Source: Oryzomonas sagensis
GTDB lineage: Bacteria; Desulfobacterota; Desulfuromonadia; Geobacterales; Pseudopelobacteraceae
Direction of reading: 5' to 3'
Assembly (NCBI RefSeq): GCF_008802355.1
Contig: NZ_VZRA01000003.1
Span: 176,196 to 240,195 of the forward strand
DNA length: 64,000 bases
Below the pieces are notes generated by a model, which did not search any database, was not told where the DNA came from, and saw nothing but the letters and a program-made list of their open reading frames with translations. Shown piece after piece: positions 10,743 through 18,234 of this stretch. The position numbers were made by a program, and so were the translations under genes. Position 1 is the first letter of the stretch; each line of letters begins with the position of its first letter.

Positions 10743-11675
10743 GTGCAACTTATCAATAAAACCGCGGTCGATTTTATCGGCAAGAGAAACATCACCTTCA
10801 TCGTATCGGGTATCATCGTTATTATAGGCTTGATCGGCATTGTCCAGATCGCCAGAAACGCCGCCAATATGGGCATCGACTTTTCCGGGGGGACATCGGT
10901 GCAGCTCAATTTCACCCAGCCGGTCCCTCTGGAAAAGGCCCGTGACCTCCTTGCCCGGAACAACCTCGGCGAGGCCAACCTGCAGGAAATCCAGGAGGGG
11001 AACAAGCTCCTTGTCAAGGTCGGAAAAGCCAGCCTGATGGCCGGGAACAACGTCGATACCATCAAGGAAGTCTTCAAAAAAGGGTTCCCGGGGAACGATT
11101 TCGTGGTGGAGAGCTCCACGGAGATAGGTCCTTCCATCGGCGACAAGCTCAAGAAGGATACCCTGATAGCGGTGGGAGTGTCCATGCTCGGCATCATCTT
11201 GTACATAGCCTGGCGTTTTGATTTCAAGTTCGGCTTTGGCGCCGTCGTCTCCACACTCCATGATGTGCTGGCGATGGTTGCCCTGTTTTACGTCTTGGAC
11301 AAGGAGATCAACCTTCTGTTCATTACCGCGGTCCTGACGATTGCAGGGTACTCTCTAACCGATACGGTGGTGGTGTTCGACCGGATCAGGGAAAATCTCA
11401 ACAGGAATCTGTCCGGGTCCATGGAGAGCATATTCAACAGAAGCATCAACGAAGTCCTGTCCCGGACCGTGATCACCTCGTTGACCACGTTTCTGGCGGC
11501 ACTGTCGCTGTTTCTTTTCGGCGGGGAGGTAATCCACGATTTTGCCCTCGCCCTGGTAAGCGGCGTCGTCATCGCAACCTACTCATCCATATTTATCGCA
11601 AGCCCCATAGTGCTGGAACTGGAACGCAGGTCGGGAAGGTCCGGGCAACAAGAGGCACAGTTCCAGGAATCGTGA
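10743..11675 (+). CDS. secF: Protein translocase subunit SecF (orphan, no adjacent secD)
   Basis: 310 residues from the GTG at 10743, which follows CAGGAGGAAAC. SecF family features: N-terminal TM (about 17-37), the periplasmic strand GIDFSGGTSVQLNF, then five TM segments with TLHDVLAMVALFYV, YSLTDTVVVFDRIREN and the tail SSIFIASPIVLELE. It would work with SecD in proton-driven late steps of protein export. No secD or yajC lies beside it, which is unusual because secD normally precedes secF. Either SecD is encoded elsewhere or this is a second, specialised SecF. Its stop overlaps the earliest in-frame GTG of the next gene. Confidence 0.88.
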   Translation: MQLINKTAVDFIGKRNITFIVSGIIVIIGLIGIVQIARNAANMGIDFSGGTSVQLNFTQPVPLEKARDLLARNNLGEANLQEIQEGNKLLVKVGKASLMAGNNVDTIKEVFKKGFPGNDFVVESSTEIGPSIGDKLKKDTLIAVGVSMLGIILYIAWRFDFKFGFGAVVSTLHDVLAMVALFYVLDKEINLLFITAVLTIAGYSLTDTVVVFDRIRENLNRNLSGSMESIFNRSINEVLSRTVITSLTTFLAALSLFLFGGEVIHDFALALVSGVVIATYSSIFIASPIVLELERRSGRSGQQEAQFQES

Positions 11676-11701
11676 AATACTTTTCCAGCAGGAGAATCAT
11701 C

Positions 11702-12628
11702 ATGGCCAAACATTGGGAAGGGCTCTCCCCGTGGCGTCCGGATATAGCCATAGACCTGGGTACTGCAACGACCCGTGTCGTCAGCAAGGGGCATGGGGTT
11801 ATAACCCATGCTTCCATGGCTGGAAACGTCCCGGCATTGTCGTGCGGCGTCGTGGCGAATCCGGATGCCGTGGTGGCGCTTCTTGAACCGCTCATTTCAA
11901 AAATGAGGATATTCGGCATGATCCGTCCACGCGCCGTGGCGTGCGCCCCTACCGATGCGAACGCCGATGAGCGCAATGCTCTTATCGAGGGGGTTTCCCG
12001 GGGCGGCGCATGCGCTGTCGTCGTTGTCCCGGAACCCCTCGCCGCAGCCGTCGGTGCAGGGGTCGATATCGTATCGCCCTATGCCCGGATGGTCGTCGAT
12101 ATCGGCGAGGGGGTAACGGACTGCGCCGTCATCACGTCCGGTAAGGTCGTGGACACGGCAGCCCTGCGCGGAGGGTGCTGTGCGCTACGGAACGCGGTCC
12201 GGGAGGGGATGCTCAGGATGCGGAACATGCGGATATCCACCCGTCAGGCTGAGTCGCTGGTTCGCGCGGCGCTCCGCGGTTCGGCTGCTGTTCCCGTGCC
12301 GACACGGGATGCGCGGGGAGGCGATGGTCCTGCGCTGCCGCAGATCGGTCTCGTTGAGGCGCGGGAGGCCTGCGATCCGGCGGTGAAAGCGATCCTGGGC
12401 TTGATAACGGAATTTCTCCGGGAGGTGCCGCACGCAACGGGAAGCGAGATTATCGAAAACGGCATCACCCTGACGGGAGGAGGCGCCCTGCTGGCCGGCA
12501 TGCGGGAAAGGATTCAGGCGGCAACCGGCATTACGGTCATGCCGGTTGCCAACCCGCTTGAAGCGGTCGTACGGGGGGCGTACGCCATGCTGCCGATCGT
12601 GGCGATGCTCAATATGTGGAAGCAGTGA
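11702..12628 (+). CDS. Short MreB-like actin-family ATPase
   Basis: 308 residues from the ATG at 11702, which has CAGGAGA upstream; the frame opens at a GTG at 11672 overlapping secF. Actin-fold motifs are ordered as in MreB: phosphate 1 IAIDLGTATTRVV, EPLAAAVGAG, phosphate 2 MVVDIGEGVTDCAVI, and adenosine LTGGGALLAGM. The divergence is notable: the glycine after DIG is Glu (MreB has DIGGGT) and the protein is about 35-40 residues shorter than typical MreB. No mreC or mreD follows. It may be a shape or filament paralogue, or a non-polymerising ATPase. Confidence 0.75.
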   Translation: MAKHWEGLSPWRPDIAIDLGTATTRVVSKGHGVITHASMAGNVPALSCGVVANPDAVVALLEPLISKMRIFGMIRPRAVACAPTDANADERNALIEGVSRGGACAVVVVPEPLAAAVGAGVDIVSPYARMVVDIGEGVTDCAVITSGKVVDTAALRGGCCALRNAVREGMLRMRNMRISTRQAESLVRAALRGSAAVPVPTRDARGGDGPALPQIGLVEAREACDPAVKAILGLITEFLREVPHATGSEIIENGITLTGGGALLAGMRERIQAATGITVMPVANPLEAVVRGAYAMLPIVAMLNMWKQ

Positions 12629-12722: not shown

Positions 12723-14000
12723 ATGCCGTTCCCCTCGCAATCTCCTGGTAACGAAAGCCGCGTTATGCTCAAACTGATTCGATTGGTATGCGGGGTCGGG
12801 CTCTCCCTGTTCATCCTCTGGTTCGCCATGAACAATTATCGCGATGCGCGCCCCATCGCGGAGGATAATCTTTTCGGGCTGGCCCATTCGCTTCATGCGG
12901 CCATTGAAAACAGTGTGGTTCACGACCCATCCCTCCAATCCCTGGCGACGTTCCATGCCCAGGATTTAGCCTATTTCGCTCTTGTCGACAGGGAGGGCGT
13001 TTACCGATTCCACTCCAACCAGGAGTTGATAGGCACCCGGTTGCAAAACAGCGATACGTTGCGGCGGTTGTTTGCCGAAACCATGTCGGGAACCCGCGTG
13101 AAGCTCGCAACGGGTGAAACCGCGTACGAGTTGTACGGCCACATCCATACGCCCCGTGAGACCCTGGGGCTGCGTCTGGTGCTCCACACCTACCGGGCGG
13201 ACGCGGTCATCAGGCATGCCCGACTGACCATGGCCGTACTGTTCGCCCTGGTAGCGGTCGGGTGGTTCCTGACCTTTGTCATCTATCGCTATTCCCTGCG
13301 GGAAGAGCTGCACCGGCAGGAAATGGCGCAGCGCGAAAGCCTGGCCCAAATGGGGGAAATGGGCGCCATGCTGGCCCATGAGATCCGCAACCCCCTGGCA
13401 GGGATCAAAGGGTTTGCCCAGCTCATTGAAAAAAGGCCCGACGACCCCCGGACAAAGGAATCCGCCCACCGGATCGTGGCGGAGGCCCGGCGCCTCGAGT
13501 CCCTGGTGACGGACCTGCTCGCCTTTGCCAGGAACGACGGGGGTGAGGCGGAGCCTTGTGCCCTTGCCCAACTTGTCGAACATTGCGTCGATCTGGTACG
13601 GCCAGAAGCCGAACAGGCCCGGGTCGTCCTCGTCGTGGACTGCCCCCACGATCTGGTGGTAACCGGCAAGCGGGACCGGCTCGGACAGGTGCTGCTCAAT
13701 ATCGTCAAAAACGGCGTGCAGGCGATGCCCGACGGGGGAGAGCTTCGCGTAACGGCGCACGCGGCCGGCCCCCAGGCAATCGTCACCATCAGCGACACCG
13801 GGCACGGCATCAGCCCGGAAAACCTTGCCAGGATATTCACACCCTTTTTTACCACCAAGGCCAGGGGCACGGGGTTGGGGCTGGCGCTCAGCAAGAAGAT
13901 CATCGAAGAACACCACGGTTCGATTGCACTTGAAAGTTCAGGCCGCGGGACGGCGGTAACCATAACGCTGCCAGGGGCACGGGTAGGGGAGAAGTCATGA
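12723..14000 (+). CDS. Membrane sensor histidine kinase, NtrB/ZraS-like
   Basis: 425 residues: TM1 (about 18-36), a periplasmic sensor of about 130 residues that looks PAS/Cache-like (YFALVDREGVYRFHSN), TM2 (about 168-189), HisKA with LAHEIRNPLAGIKG (His219), and HATPase_c (NIVKNGVQAM, SDTGHGI, GTGLGLALSKKI). The layout matches kinases that sense periplasmic signals and pair with sigma-54 activators. The start may instead be the ATG at 12765 (residue 15); neither has a clear ribosome-binding site. Its stop overlaps the start of the cognate regulator (ATGA). The Met-rich exported gene cluster lies immediately beyond the regulator. Confidence 0.88.
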   Translation: MPFPSQSPGNESRVMLKLIRLVCGVGLSLFILWFAMNNYRDARPIAEDNLFGLAHSLHAAIENSVVHDPSLQSLATFHAQDLAYFALVDREGVYRFHSNQELIGTRLQNSDTLRRLFAETMSGTRVKLATGETAYELYGHIHTPRETLGLRLVLHTYRADAVIRHARLTMAVLFALVAVGWFLTFVIYRYSLREELHRQEMAQRESLAQMGEMGAMLAHEIRNPLAGIKGFAQLIEKRPDDPRTKESAHRIVAEARRLESLVTDLLAFARNDGGEAEPCALAQLVEHCVDLVRPEAEQARVVLVVDCPHDLVVTGKRDRLGQVLLNIVKNGVQAMPDGGELRVTAHAAGPQAIVTISDTGHGISPENLARIFTPFFTTKARGTGLGLALSKKIIEEHHGSIALESSGRGTAVTITLPGARVGEKS

Positions 14001-15346
14001 AAGGGCGTATTCTGCTGGTCGAGGACGATGAAACCTTCAGGAGTTTTTTGCAGACCGTTCTGGAGGACGAGGGGCATGATGTGCTCACCGCCGGCGACGG
14101 ACTGTCCGGGGCCCGGTTGATAAAGGGCAAGCAGTTCGACCTGGTTATCTCGGATCTGAAGATGCCCGGCAAAAGCGGTCTTGAGCTGTTCCGGGACACC
14201 ATACAGGATGCCAACCCTCCCCGGTTTATCTTTCTGACCGCGTTCGGAACGGTGGAGGAGGCGGTCGGCGCCATGAAGGATGGGGCCTTCGATTTTCTCA
14301 CCAAACCGCTGGAAGACCCGGATACCCTGTTGAGGATTGTGGACCGGGCGCTTGAAGGCCTGCAACACTCGCGGGACTACCGTGCGCTCAAGGAATCCGA
14401 AACGGTTGGGTTACCGCCGGAAGAGCTCATCTTTGCGGGATCGGCCATGCAGTCGATACAAAAACTGGTCCACAACGTGGCAGGCACCACGGCCAATGTG
14501 CTTCTCTACGGCGAAAGCGGCACCGGCAAGGAGTTGGTGGCCAGGACCATCCATCTGCTCAGCCCCCGGAGCAACGGCGGGCTCGTCCCGCTCAACTGTG
14601 CGGCCATCCCGGAAAACCTGCTGGAGAGTGAGCTTTTCGGCCACGAAAAGGGGGCCTTTACGGGGGCTATCCAGGCCCGACTGGGCAAGTTCGAATTGGC
14701 CAAGGGGGGGACCATTTTTCTGGACGAAATCGGTGAAATGCCGGTGGCCCTCCAGGCCAAGCTGCTGCGGGTCCTTCAGGAACGGGTGTTCGAACGGGTC
14801 GGGGGCGGCAAGGAGATCAAGGCCGATGTGCGGGTGATTGCGGCAACCAACCGCGACCTTGCGGAAGAGGTCGCGGAGAAGCGTTTCCGCGAGGATCTCT
14901 TCTACCGTCTCAACGTCTTCCCGGTCAACCTGCCGCCGCTCCGGGAACGGCGGGATATCATCCCGTTGCTGACCGAGTACTTTATCCAGCGCTTCTGCCG
15001 TCAGGTCGGCAAGAAGCTCAAGGGCATCGAACCGGAGGCGCTCAAGGCCATGAAGGCGTATGCCTGGCCGGGCAATATCCGCGAGTTGCAGAACGTCGTG
15101 GAGCGGGCCGTCATCCTTGCCCAGGATATGGTCCGGGCTGCCAATCTCCCCGATGCTCTGGCGCGTTCACCGGAGCCGGTCGCTATTACCGGCAAGGACA
15201 AGCTGAGAATGGTGGAGCGCGATCTGATCGTCAAAGCCCTGGAACAGCATGGCGGCAACCGCCGTCTGGCTGCCGAGGAGCTACGGGTGTCGCGCCGGAC
15301 CCTTCAATACAAGCTGAAGGAGTTTGGCCTGCTCGACGAAGACTAG
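13997..15346 (+). CDS. Sigma-54-dependent response regulator, NtrC family
   Basis: 449 residues. The receiver domain has the acidic pair at 10-12 and phospho-acceptor Asp53 (DLVISDLKMPG). The AAA+ domain has Walker A GESGTGKE (172-179), the sigma-54 contact loop GAFTGA (219-224) and Walker B TIFLDE. A Fis-type HTH closes the protein (RRLAAEELRVSRRTLQYKL). All residues needed to activate sigma-54 RNA polymerase are present. It overlaps the kinase gene by 4 bp. Its target is not shown by the sequence; the exported cluster starting 176 bases downstream is the obvious candidate. Confidence 0.93.
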   Translation: MKGRILLVEDDETFRSFLQTVLEDEGHDVLTAGDGLSGARLIKGKQFDLVISDLKMPGKSGLELFRDTIQDANPPRFIFLTAFGTVEEAVGAMKDGAFDFLTKPLEDPDTLLRIVDRALEGLQHSRDYRALKESETVGLPPEELIFAGSAMQSIQKLVHNVAGTTANVLLYGESGTGKELVARTIHLLSPRSNGGLVPLNCAAIPENLLESELFGHEKGAFTGAIQARLGKFELAKGGTIFLDEIGEMPVALQAKLLRVLQERVFERVGGGKEIKADVRVIAATNRDLAEEVAEKRFREDLFYRLNVFPVNLPPLRERRDIIPLLTEYFIQRFCRQVGKKLKGIEPEALKAMKAYAWPGNIRELQNVVERAVILAQDMVRAANLPDALARSPEPVAITGKDKLRMVERDLIVKALEQHGGNRRLAAEELRVSRRTLQYKLKEFGLLDED

Positions 15347-15400
15347 TGTTGTGCAACATTCTTCTCACATGGTGCAATTGTCTGCACATTTTATCCTTAT

Positions 15401-15427
15401 TTGACTTTTATGAATAAACAATAAAAT
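15401..15427 (+). promoter_or_regulatory. Candidate sigma-70-type promoter for the Met-rich cluster
   Basis: TTGACT (15401-15406) and TAAAAT (15422-15427) are separated by 15 bases, shorter than ideal, in an AT-rich stretch about 100 bases before the first exported gene. A second candidate further on, TTGGCATACACCGTGGAA (15462-15479), matches a sigma-54 -24 box but has GG where the -12 GC should be. Confidence 0.35.
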
Positions 15428-15471
15428 TAATGATATCGCGGTATTGCTAAAGTTTTTCGTTTTGGCATACA

Positions 15472-15510
15472 CCGTGGAATATACCTGGACAGAATCATCA
15501 TATTCCACGG
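15472..15510 (+). promoter_or_regulatory. Perfect 11-bp inverted repeat before the Met-rich cluster
   Basis: CCGTGGAATAT (15472-15482) and ATATTCCACGG (15500-15510) are exact complements separated by 17 bases. The right arm runs into the ribosome-binding site GGAGG (15509-15513) of the gene at 15523. It could be an operator for a dimeric regulator or an mRNA hairpin that limits ribosome access. Confidence 0.6.
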
Positions 15511-15522
15511 AGGTATCCACAA

Positions 15523-15843
15523 ATGAAAAGGATCGGAACAATCTCAACAGTGGCGGCAAGCGCCGCTCTCATACTTGCCGTCCAGGCATTCGCTTTCGGC
15601 GGCGGGATGGGGGGCGGCCAAATGGGGGGAAGCATGGGCGGGGGGCATCAGATGTCTTCCGGCATGCAGGGGGCCGGTGGCGCGGGCATGCATCAGGGGG
15701 CGATGAATGGCACGGGGCCGCAGCATATGGCCATGAATGGAACAGGGGCTCAGGGCGGCGCCACCATGCCGTCCGGGCAGATAGGCGGGAGCGGCAACGG
15801 TATGACCGCCACGAAACCGCCCGCAGCCACAACCACCAAATAG
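15523..15843 (+). CDS. Small secreted Gly/Met-rich protein
   Basis: 106 residues. A signal peptide (about 1-24, KRIGTISTVAASAALILAVQ then AFA) precedes a mature chain of about 82 residues with 11 Met, 3 His, many Gly and no Cys. Repeated units include GGGM, HQM, QHM and two copies of MNGTG. Low-complexity Met/His-rich exported proteins often bind Cu(I) or Ag(I), but that is inference here; a structural or surface role is also possible. The ATG follows GGAGG by nine bases, at the end of the inverted repeat. It is the first of four exported genes on this strand. Confidence 0.75.
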   Translation: MKRIGTISTVAASAALILAVQAFAFGGGMGGGQMGGSMGGGHQMSSGMQGAGGAGMHQGAMNGTGPQHMAMNGTGAQGGATMPSGQIGGSGNGMTATKPPAATTTK

Positions 15844-15865
15844 CACGAATCGGGAGTAGTCCAGT

Positions 15866-16375
15866 ATGACCAAAGACCGTTTTTTTTCCATCGCGACGTT
15901 GGCAATCGTTTTGAATGGCCTGCTGATCGGCTCCGCGTTTGCCGGCTTCGGCTTCGGCAGCGATGCCGTTGGGAAGAGCGGTCTGGACTTCGCCAAGGGG
16001 TACGATGTGAACACGGTGACGACCGTAACGGGTCGCGTGGTATCTTCTCCCCAGACCGGAGAAAAAGAGCACATTTTTGTGGACGTAAAGGCCGGTGGGG
16101 AGACCATCAGCCTCAATCTTGGGCCCAAGTCGTTCTGGGAGAAAAAGGAAATTCCGCTCCATCCCAACGACGATATCAGCGCCAAGGGCTCCAAGGCCCA
16201 GGGTAAGGATGGGAAAACTTATCTGATGGTGCAGAAGCTCACAAACAAGACCACCGGCTCTCAAGCAGCATTGCGAAATGATCAAGGGAGGGCCGCCTGG
16301 TCCGGGTGGAATTCGGGCGGCATGATGCAGGGCGGTGGCATGATGCGCGGCGGTGGCGGGATGATGAGACGCTGA
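15866..16375 (+). CDS. Exported protein with small beta domain and Met-rich tail
   Basis: 169 residues with a signal peptide (about 1-26, ending SAFA). The central 100 residues look like a small beta/OB-like domain: VTTVTGRVVSS, HIFVDVKAGGETISLNLGP, NDDISAKGSKAQGKDGKTYL. The C-terminus ends GGMMQGGGMMRGGGGMMRR, six Met in 19 residues. I do not recognise a named family. It is 22 bases downstream of the Gly/Met-rich gene and shares its Met-rich character, which suggests a common metal or matrix function. Confidence 0.75.
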   Translation: MTKDRFFSIATLAIVLNGLLIGSAFAGFGFGSDAVGKSGLDFAKGYDVNTVTTVTGRVVSSPQTGEKEHIFVDVKAGGETISLNLGPKSFWEKKEIPLHPNDDISAKGSKAQGKDGKTYLMVQKLTNKTTGSQAALRNDQGRAAWSGWNSGGMMQGGGMMRGGGGMMRR

Positions 16376-16429
16376 AGTTTGCCGTCCTTGTTGCCCACGA
16401 AGCCGATTATCTTAAAGAAGGAGCTCACA

Positions 16430-17293
16430 ATGCAACACTTGATAGGATCGGGAAGGTTTTCCTCCCTTCTTGCCGTCATGACCCTCTTCATTCTTCCGGC
16501 ATGGGCTTGTGCCGACGAACCCGCATATTCCGTCGGCCTTGGCTTTGAGTTCGCGTCGGGTAAATACGGAACCGGAATCAGGACCGACTCCATATACATG
16601 CCGTTCACGGCGACGGTCTACCCGACCGAGCGACTTGATTTTTCGCTGGAAATCCCCTTTGTCTACCAGAGCAGTAGTGCGGTGGTGGCGGGGCAATACA
16701 TGGGGATGCAGGGGCAGTCCACGGGCATGCAGTCGGTTGTGGCGGCAATGAATGGCATGGGGGCCTCCGGCTCGATGACTTCCGCGTCGGCGGGGAGCGT
16801 CAATAATTCCCATTCCGGGCTCGGCGACATCAAACTAAAGGCCGGATATGTCCTGTACACCGAGGAAAAGTATGTGCCGGCCATCCGCCCCAACGTCTAC
16901 GTGAAAATTCCCACCGCCGACAAGAACAAATTCCTTGGGACCGGGGAGTTTGATGAAGGCTTTGCCGTGGAATTAACCAAGTGGTTCGGCAGTTGGTTTG
17001 CGGACGGCGAGGCGGGGTACGTCATCCAGGGAAAATCATCGGTCATTGCCGTCAAAAATTATCTCAACTACTACGCCGGAGCAGGTTATCAACTCACCGA
17101 GCGGCTGCGCCCCATGGTGTTGCTCAAAGGGACCACTCCTACCGTCAACGGCGCAGCGTCCCAGTTGGAGGCGCGGCTCAGAGTCAAGTACCAGTTCGCG
17201 AAACACACCGGCATCGATGGCTATCTGGCCAAGGGGATCACGACCGCCAGTCCCGAGTACGGCATGGGACTCGCCGTCTTTTACGAATTCTAG
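16430..17293 (+). CDS. Outer-membrane beta-barrel protein with Met-rich loop
   Basis: 287 residues from the ATG at 16430 (AAGAAGGAG upstream). The signal peptide ends near PAWACADE. The rest alternates amphipathic strands and ends in FYEF, a C-terminal aromatic as used by outer-membrane barrels. A probable loop between strands (about 88-115: QYMGMQGQSTGMQ...) has six Met in under 30 residues. It resembles the transporter/MetA-pathway-of-phenol type of small barrels by general pattern, but I am not certain of the family. It would place Met ligands at the cell surface or the periplasmic mouth. Third gene of the cluster. Confidence 0.75.
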   Translation: MQHLIGSGRFSSLLAVMTLFILPAWACADEPAYSVGLGFEFASGKYGTGIRTDSIYMPFTATVYPTERLDFSLEIPFVYQSSSAVVAGQYMGMQGQSTGMQSVVAAMNGMGASGSMTSASAGSVNNSHSGLGDIKLKAGYVLYTEEKYVPAIRPNVYVKIPTADKNKFLGTGEFDEGFAVELTKWFGSWFADGEAGYVIQGKSSVIAVKNYLNYYAGAGYQLTERLRPMVLLKGTTPTVNGAASQLEARLRVKYQFAKHTGIDGYLAKGITTASPEYGMGLAVFYEF

Positions 17294-17329
17294 ACTTCGC
17301 GTGCAGATGCGATTGAAGGAGAAACGATC

Positions 17330-18175
17330 ATGATGAAAAAAACTATATTAGCAGCAGCGATGATTACTGTCGGCCTTATCGCCGGGTGCGGCAGCGGAGG
17401 CGGGACTACTCCGGCAACAGGAACAACCTCCTTGAGCGGCAAAGTGGCTGACGGTTATCTCGTCGGTGCCACCGTATTCCTCGACAAAAACGGTAACTAC
17501 CAGTTGGATGCCGGCGAACCCTCGGCCACCACGGATGCCAATGGCGCGTACACCCTGACGGTCGATCCCGCGGATGTGGGCAAGTATCCCATCGTGGCGC
17601 TGGCAATCAAGGGGCAGACCATCGACAAGGATACCGGGCTGCCGGTCACCGGCAGTTATGTCCTCAGCATGCCCGCCACAGCCACGAGCGGCACGGTCAA
17701 CAGCAACTTCATCAGCCCCATGTCGTCCCAATTGCGGGAAATGATGGAAACAGGGAAATATGCTTCCATGCAGCAGGCCATGACCGCCCTGGCGGCCAAA
17801 CTTGGCATGACGGTCGGGACGAACATGCTCGAAGACTATATGCTCGCCAATAACGCCACCATGCACACTGCGGCGCAGAATATGGCGAGCCTGATGGGGG
17901 GAGAGATGGCTCAAGTGATGGGAACAAGCGGAACCACCGTTACCGTTGATGTCAATCGCTACCGCGGCATGATGGGGATGATCTTCAGCAACATGTCGTC
18001 CATCAAGGGGCCGAATTCCCAAACGGCCATGACGACCCTTATGGGCACCATGACCACAACCCTGGGGAATATGCCGATGATGAGTGCCGGACAGCCGTAC
18101 CTGAATATGTCGACCGCCTTCAGAGGGGGCATGGCGGGAGGGACGACCGGGACCGGCGGCATGATGATGAACTGA
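17330..18175 (+). CDS. Met-rich lipoprotein with carboxypeptidase-like/SdrD-like N-terminal domain
   Basis: 281 residues. Lipobox LIAGC gives a lipid-anchored Cys near residue 20. The following domain (about 35-85: GYLVGATVFLDKNGNYQLDA) resembles a beta-sandwich with a Ca-loop-like DKNGNYQLDAGE. The last 100 residues have about 19 Met and end GGMMMN. RBS AAGGAGAAACGATC precedes the ATG; MM allows a start at 17330 or 17333. It is the last of the four exported genes, followed by a strong terminator. The function is unknown. With the other three it suggests an envelope-spanning Met-rich system. Confidence 0.78.
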   Translation: MMKKTILAAAMITVGLIAGCGSGGGTTPATGTTSLSGKVADGYLVGATVFLDKNGNYQLDAGEPSATTDANGAYTLTVDPADVGKYPIVALAIKGQTIDKDTGLPVTGSYVLSMPATATSGTVNSNFISPMSSQLREMMETGKYASMQQAMTALAAKLGMTVGTNMLEDYMLANNATMHTAAQNMASLMGGEMAQVMGTSGTTVTVDVNRYRGMMGMIFSNMSSIKGPNSQTAMTTLMGTMTTTLGNMPMMSAGQPYLNMSTAFRGGMAGGTTGTGGMMMN

Positions 18176-18198: not shown

Positions 18199-18234
18199 AA
18201 AAACGGTCGTTCGCACTTGCGAACGACCGTTTTT
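18199..18234. terminator. Bidirectional intrinsic terminator between Met-rich cluster and MCP gene
   Basis: A perfect 17-bp stem (18199-18215 with 18218-18234), GC-rich in the middle and flanked by A5 and T5 tracts, so it can stop transcription from both sides: the lipoprotein gene on plus and the chemoreceptor on minus. Confidence 0.92.

Follow-up and report, generated by a model that had tools for sequence, protein, structure and literature searches.

A six-gene unit in the genome of Oryzomonas sagensis is a conserved envelope module of the order Geobacterales, with a regulator pair of its own. It occupies positions 12723-18175, on the plus strand, of the window, by which we mean the whole 64,000-nucleotide stretch analysed (contig NZ_VZRA01000003.1, positions 176,196 to 240,195, part of a 3.6 Mb genome). 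In order, its genes encode a membrane sensor histidine kinase (HK), an NtrC-type response regulator (RR), a secreted Gly/Met-rich peptide (MGP), an exported protein with a predicted OB fold (OB), an outer-membrane barrel (BAR) and a lipoprotein (LIP). Judging from the sequence, we interpret the unit with moderate confidence as an envelope module, controlled by that pair, that confers tolerance of a soft monovalent metal, Cu(I) and/or Ag(I) being the likeliest. The six open reading frames and the Met-rich segments reported in a preliminary description of this DNA were confirmed. A literature search through titles and the openings of abstracts, with subscription journals largely outside its reach, did not find the unit described.

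Conservation of the unit and its exported proteins

We searched 141 genomes of the order Geobacterales. Weak matches included, BAR was present in 104, OB in 99 and LIP in 82 of them. Neighbour counts were made on stronger matches, extending to approximately E 1e-20 for BAR (117 places in 92 genomes), 1e-23 for OB (111 places in 93 genomes) and 1e-37 for LIP (96 places in 74 genomes). OB and BAR are neighbours at 104 of the 117 BAR places and 104 of the 111 OB places. LIP lies within 4 kb of BAR at 54 of the 117 BAR places, and 41 of the 96 LIP places lack a BAR within 5 kb. Forty wide loci were also read; these were hand-chosen, not random, and L003-L005 were left out (same contigs as G114, G021 and G005). 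Both OB and BAR were found in 38 of the 40, and by gene-list reading the HK-RR pair adjoins them in 37 of those 38, the exception being L130. In L107 the regulator gene is broken into two frames, in L113 the pair sits between OB and a divergent BAR, and in L098, L105, L108 and L127 the pair lies downstream of the cassette. LIP was found in 28 and an MGP-like peptide in 15 of the 40. That these proteins occur together, and do so alongside the two-component pair, was a test proposed in the preliminary description; this co-occurrence holds, and a chance run of six genes was rejected, since neighbour counts and wide loci show recurrence. Homologues scattered singly, with Met unconserved, were not what was found for the set as a whole, although LIP also occurs alone and one subtype lacks the Met residues.

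In the four loci with a downstream pair, a HlyD-type adaptor, a MacB-like permease and an ABC ATPase, assigned by cluster membership, lie nearby and may represent a different export partner. In two other genomes (L171 in G097, L172 in G099), a block of a CDF-like protein (by resemblance; CDF, cation diffusion facilitator), a two-component pair and LIP occurs twice, approximately 6.2 kb apart.

Two subtypes were distinguished. In subtype A, LIP is present and the OB tail is Met-rich, its last 45 residues mostly holding 4-8 Met. Subtype B, in ten loci, has a different small secreted protein with the motif RPxGSQRRDGTF; seven of the ten lack LIP and have OB tails with 0-2 Met. Three loci (L121, L123 and L113) have Met tails yet no strong LIP, and three others (L096, L097 and L135) combine LIP with the subtype B peptide, with 1, 6 and 5 Met in their tails. 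A Gly-rich secreted peptide is encoded upstream in both subtypes. Met conservation among homologues is a property of the subtype with LIP, and mostly does not extend to the subtype without it.

MGP (15523..15843, plus strand, 106 aa) contains 12 Met and no Cys; residues 27-106 hold 11 Met and 27 Gly. It matched no family in domain and NCBIfam model searches. OB (15866..16375, plus strand) ends in a Gly/Met tail, WNSGGMMQGGGMMRGGGGMMRR, with six Met, and the pattern GGGMM-RGGGGMMRR is conserved across most LIP-bearing loci. An AlphaFold model of the OB core, built from four sequences, reached a mean predicted local distance difference test score (pLDDT) of 64, with block means of 62-87 over residues 21-110 of the mature protein. 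The model resembled OB-containing lysyl-tRNA synthetases in the PDB (E 2e-5, TM score ~0.4), and on this basis OB is predicted to be an exported OB-fold protein; CusF was absent among the structure matches listed (50 of 1128). In domain searches, OB and LIP gave sub-threshold matches only, and PDB profile searches with them gave weak or partial ones, the best being to designed 'Bagel' proteins (8e-6 over 25 positions). The MamS equivalog cut-off was not reached (17.4 vs 200 bits). BAR (16430..17293, plus strand) passes PF13557 (44.7 bits against a gathering cut-off of 22), its sole Pfam match at E <= 1, and has a six-Met segment at residues 91-116. Where the preliminary description spoke of an exported beta domain and an outer-membrane barrel, export and the barrel stand, and the assignments are sharpened to a predicted OB fold and PF13557.

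LIP (17330..18175, plus strand) has an N-terminal beta part and a C-terminal Met-rich part, helical at low confidence; structure prediction gave no usable model (mean pLDDT 50). Its lipoprotein Cys20 is retained in 29 of 29 aligned sequences. Of its 32 Met, 19 fall within the last 100 residues. The 27 Met columns of the C-terminal part have a mean conservation of 0.67, nine of them at 0.8 or above. This exceeds the values for Thr (0.38), Ala (0.43), Gly (0.48) and Leu (0.59), is similar to those for Val (0.64) and Tyr (0.68), and is below those for Ile (0.78), Phe (0.77) and Arg (0.86), the last three based on few columns. As judged from the alignment, the Met content of LIP exceeds chance.

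The OB profile also matched in 83 of 297 genomes of the phylum, eight of these from Geobacterales. The HK-RR-OB arrangement was present in 8 of 12 OB loci read from deeply separate Desulfobacterota, and BAR was not recognised at the OB loci read outside Geobacterales. Among these, only in L262 do an exported protein and a clearly Met-rich lipoprotein, with 43 Met, follow OB. Downstream of OB, L262:562-2061 encodes 43 Met in 499 aa and L271:5443-7320 encodes 50 Met in 625 aa (start uncertain), both with no Pfam match; the lipoprotein of L264 has 16 Met in 454.

The regulator pair, its promoter and the inverted repeat

The kinase and sigma-54 activator reported upstream of the exported proteins were verified by their domains. 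HK (12723..14000, plus strand, 425 aa) has HisKA and HATPase domains, a probable periplasmic sensor domain and a ZraS/AtoS-like layout. RR (13997..15346, plus strand, 449 aa) has all three domains of NtrC-type sigma-54 response regulators: a receiver (Response_reg), a sigma-54 AAA+ domain (Sigma54_activat) and a Fis-type helix-turn-helix. HK matched the ZraS model over residues 80-418, and ZraS was among its two best kinase model matches; the ZraSR equivalog cut-offs were not reached (230 of 479 and 385 of 760 bits). In the sensor region, a His (H97) and an Asn (N99) are invariant in 38 of 38 aligned kinases, and the identity of a metal is not readable from them.

A sigma-54-like promoter, TTGGCATACACCGTGGA, was found by motif match at 15462..15478 (plus strand), upstream of MGP. 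The motif YYGGCAYR-N5-TGNW, -24/-12-like with exact spacing, occurs in 36 of 39 regions upstream of the first gene, against 0.21 expected by base shuffles, an optimistic expectation because the motif was defined after the best hits in those regions. Approximately 75 bp upstream of the promoter-like element lies a GTGCA-N-TGCAC repeat, here GTGCA-N6-TGCAC at 15372..15387 (plus strand), likely the enhancer (binding) site of RR. The composite of repeat and promoter was detected in 89 of 141 genomes, compared with 6 of 141 for a reversed-pattern control. It has a single copy in this genome, 5' of MGP. Overall, 90 of the 146 copies have OB/BAR no more than 2.2 kb downstream, and the site is present at 83 of 104 OB-BAR loci of both subtypes (the 38 pattern-source loci included). 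Outside the order, a TGG-N-TTGC version occurs near OB in 4 of the 12 loci (L261, L264, L266 and L271), three also with the repeat, as counted with no shuffle control.

Because a promoter of sigma-54 type adjoins the gene for a sigma-54 activator, the simplest reading is control by the neighbouring RR, and the four exported-protein genes are probably regulated by the adjacent pair, as had been proposed; the shared promoter and enhancer-like site fit this. An inverted repeat after LIP (18199..18234, plus strand; a self-match on the opposite strand), 3' of the last gene, is consistent with a terminator, probably an intrinsic one.

We read 20 of the 56 composite sites located away from OB/BAR, picked by hand. 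Two precede Met-rich genes adjoining pumps (L227 and L241), one lies approximately 4.4 kb before CusB-CusA (L229), and two precede small secreted Gly-rich proteins (L226 and L243). Five precede cytochrome genes, as described below, and the rest have nothing recognisable downstream. The site type is therefore common to other regulons. In G068, a like regulatory site stands before a 159-aa protein with 21 Met, encoded directly after a pump gene. In L237, L238 and L244, from other genomes, the composite site precedes a conserved multiheme c-type cytochrome operon, which suggests a related regulator for electron-transfer genes.

Linkage to CusA-type pumps and the identity of the metal

Pumps were identified as matches to TIGR00914 (CusA/CzcA family); the 150 matches, at most five per genome, make all linkage counts lower bounds. 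Of 149 merged BAR/LIP loci, at least 30 have a pump within 10 kb, where the number of pumps and a uniform genome size of 3.5 Mb predict 1.28, and 29 of the 30 pumps are on the same strand. Within 15 kb, at least 31 genomes with eleven genus labels have a pump. Among the matches listed, linkage was found for 22 of 54 BAR places with LIP and 2 of 63 without it (p 3e-7), and for 9 of 38 and 2 of 62, respectively, when genus g21 was omitted (p 0.002). Pump linkage thus follows LIP, and Met content accompanies both; in the LIP-less subtype both the Met tail and a linked pump are mostly missing.

The Cu(I)/Ag(I) site of E. coli CusA is the three-Met triad M573, M623 and M672, and the G086 pump aligns with PDB CusA chains. 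The pumps read were hand-chosen: 18 of the 31 with linkage at up to 15 kb, including one at 12 kb, 17 of the 119 unlinked ones and this genome's own. Among linked pumps 17 of 18 have the triad, among unlinked ones 9 of 17 (p 0.007); the contrast is weaker with this genome's own pump counted (17/18 vs 10/18, p 0.018). The association with pumps of the Met-triad type speaks for Cu(I)/Ag(I).

The preliminary description had taken the absence of an adjacent resistance-nodulation-division (RND) pump to set the locus apart. Within this window that absence is real, as no CusA-type pump was found at the locus. It is rejected as a defining difference, because at least 30 genomes have a CusA/CzcA-family pump within 10 kb and LIP follows CusA in pump operons. 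In six loci read (L255-L260), LIP is encoded 3' of CusA in the same orientation. Wherever the stretch extends far enough, CusC- and CusB-like genes, assigned by their similarity to proteins tested against Pfam, come first; a Met/His-rich protein lies between CusA and LIP in L256, L258 and probably L260. The TIGR00914 match of this genome, the sole one among the matches listed, is on another contig (G000:C1:154857) and has the triad. Its cus operon (L152, G000:C1:150000-162000) is similarly laid out and comprises an NtrC-type response regulator, a sigma-54-like promoter, a CusC-like protein, CusB with HMBD, CusA with the Met triad and a Met/His-rich exported protein, and is without LIP. The CusF model (PF11604) matched in 6 of 141 genomes and not in this one, and OB was unmatched by it at E <= 1.

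From the gene content and co-occurrence, the shared promoter and repeat, the linkage to Met-triad pumps and the rarity of CusF, we infer the metal, its binding, the direction of its transfer, the signal and the binding of the regulator as follows. HK would sense periplasmic metal, or damage caused by it, and phosphorylate RR. RR would bind the GTGCA-N-TGCAC repeat and switch on, from the sigma-54-like promoter, the four exported proteins. OB, in the periplasm with its Met tail, and the Met-rich part of LIP could hold the metal by Met thioethers, and buffer it or hand it to a CusCBA pump, whose genes stand at a separate locus in this genome and adjoin the unit in many relatives. The BAR Met segment and secreted MGP may extend the Met sites to and past the outer membrane. 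The preliminary description had left Cu(I)/Ag(I) handling and scavenging side by side; the pump linkage favours handling of these metals, scavenging (uptake) found no support, and tolerance is the likelier role.

Several observations weigh against this interpretation. The linkage statistics ignore kinship, and 15 of the 30 linked genomes belong to one genus, g21. Among the matches listed, 119 of the 149 loci, this one included, have no pump within 10 kb, and the sole opposite-strand linked pump (G047) lacks the Met triad. The cus operon of this genome carries its own NtrC-type regulator. The C of the sigma-54 -12 element is present in at most 2 of the 36 motif copies. The composite site is not metal-specific, because copies also precede multiheme cytochrome operons and unrelated genes; the five cytochrome cases are L235, L237, L238, L244 and L245. 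Finally, OB loci outside the order lie near divalent-metal transporters, CDF in L264 and L266 and NRAMP in L266, and in L173 the neighbours of orphan LIP genes are ArsR, CDF and a CusB/HlyD-like adaptor. Either the module kind serves several metals or these divalent-transporter neighbours are incidental.

The same neighbours, together with the ranking of ZraS among the two best HK model matches, though under its cut-off, are the case for a general envelope module for metals or metal stress (Zn, Co, Fe and Mn included), with Met as a flexible hydrophobic residue or low-affinity ligand. We regard this as unlikely, though the strongest of the competitors: within the order, 17 of the 18 linked pumps read are of the Met-triad type, and Met content tracks LIP and pump linkage. 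The clustering of several exported Met-rich proteins with a secreted peptide of the same kind could also suggest a scavenger of reactive chlorine or oxygen species, re-reduced by methionine sulfoxide reductase (Msr); MrpX of Azospira is a Met-rich scavenger of this kind. This seems quite improbable here. No Msr was present among the 10 shared-neighbour cluster representatives tested (Msr families were not searched for in the loci), the genome's sole PF00174 match, a weak one of 40 bits, falls in a 170-aa frame on a different contig, and pump linkage would be left unexplained. It is very improbable that BAR is a FapF-like channel through which the Gly-rich peptide leaves to form a surface fibre, OB and LIP being accessory. 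In favour are a weak FapF match of the BAR profile in the PDB (E 5e-5 over ~55 positions) and the Gly-rich secreted peptide encoded upstream in both subtypes. Against it stand an NCBIfam equivalog score of 18.8 for a cut-off of 700 bits, the breadth of the PF13557 family and the lack of any Fap partner match among the six proteins.

Comparison with known systems and neighbouring genes

CusCFBA of E. coli is a Cu(I)/Ag(I) efflux system with the OB-fold chaperone CusF, and its regulator CusR is of the OmpR class. The unit resembles it in its predicted exported OB-fold protein, Met-rich sites and two-component control, and in relatives LIP and the cassette adjoin Met-triad CusA pumps. It differs in that OB is unmatched by the CusF model, no pump is in this window and the regulator is of the sigma-54/NtrC type, not the OmpR type. 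To our knowledge, BAR and the Met-rich LIP have no known cus counterpart. PcoB/CopB and PcoE/SilE are parts of plasmid copper/silver clusters; the likeness lies in a Met-rich segment on an outer-membrane protein and in a small secreted peptide that, in the case of MGP, would bind metal by analogy. However, BAR belongs to PF13557, with the CopB domain model unmatched, and MGP matches no family. With ZraSR the unit shares the layout of membrane kinase and sigma-54 activator, whereas its scores fall under the equivalog cut-offs and none of the six proteins matches ZraP. The unit therefore resembles parts of Cus and Pco in its working and, by the tests made, is a member of neither.

We advance only tentatively, as a rather unlikely extension, that the unit is a new class of Cu/Ag system: a CusF-free Met relay spanning the outer membrane (OB tail, LIP, BAR segment and MGP), with its own NtrC/sigma-54 pair, feeding CusCBA or itself moving metal across the outer membrane. 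In one report, Geobacter sulfurreducens is stated to lack CusF, which is taken to suggest that a cobalt-induced pump is a Czc system (PMC7726332). GSU2133, a cobalt-induced lipoprotein beside PII-NG/czcABC in that report, was considered as a LIP member and dropped, as its cluster differs. Geobacterales have Met-triad CusA-type pumps, yet the CusF model is rarely matched; the unit is a candidate for filling this gap in Cu/Ag handling in the periplasm and at the outer membrane. If this is true, three exported protein families so far without a function would receive one, and the single dedicated promoter makes the candidate unit directly testable.

The closest named record found is from Oryzomonas japonica Red96, whose BAR is 98% identical. 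On the 5' side, the unit is preceded by a SecD/SecF-type gene and then, directly 5' of HK, by a gene for an MreB/FtsA-like ATPase (11672-12628); neither was counted as a member. The 3' neighbour, likewise not counted, lies on the opposite strand and encodes a chemotaxis receptor with PilZ.

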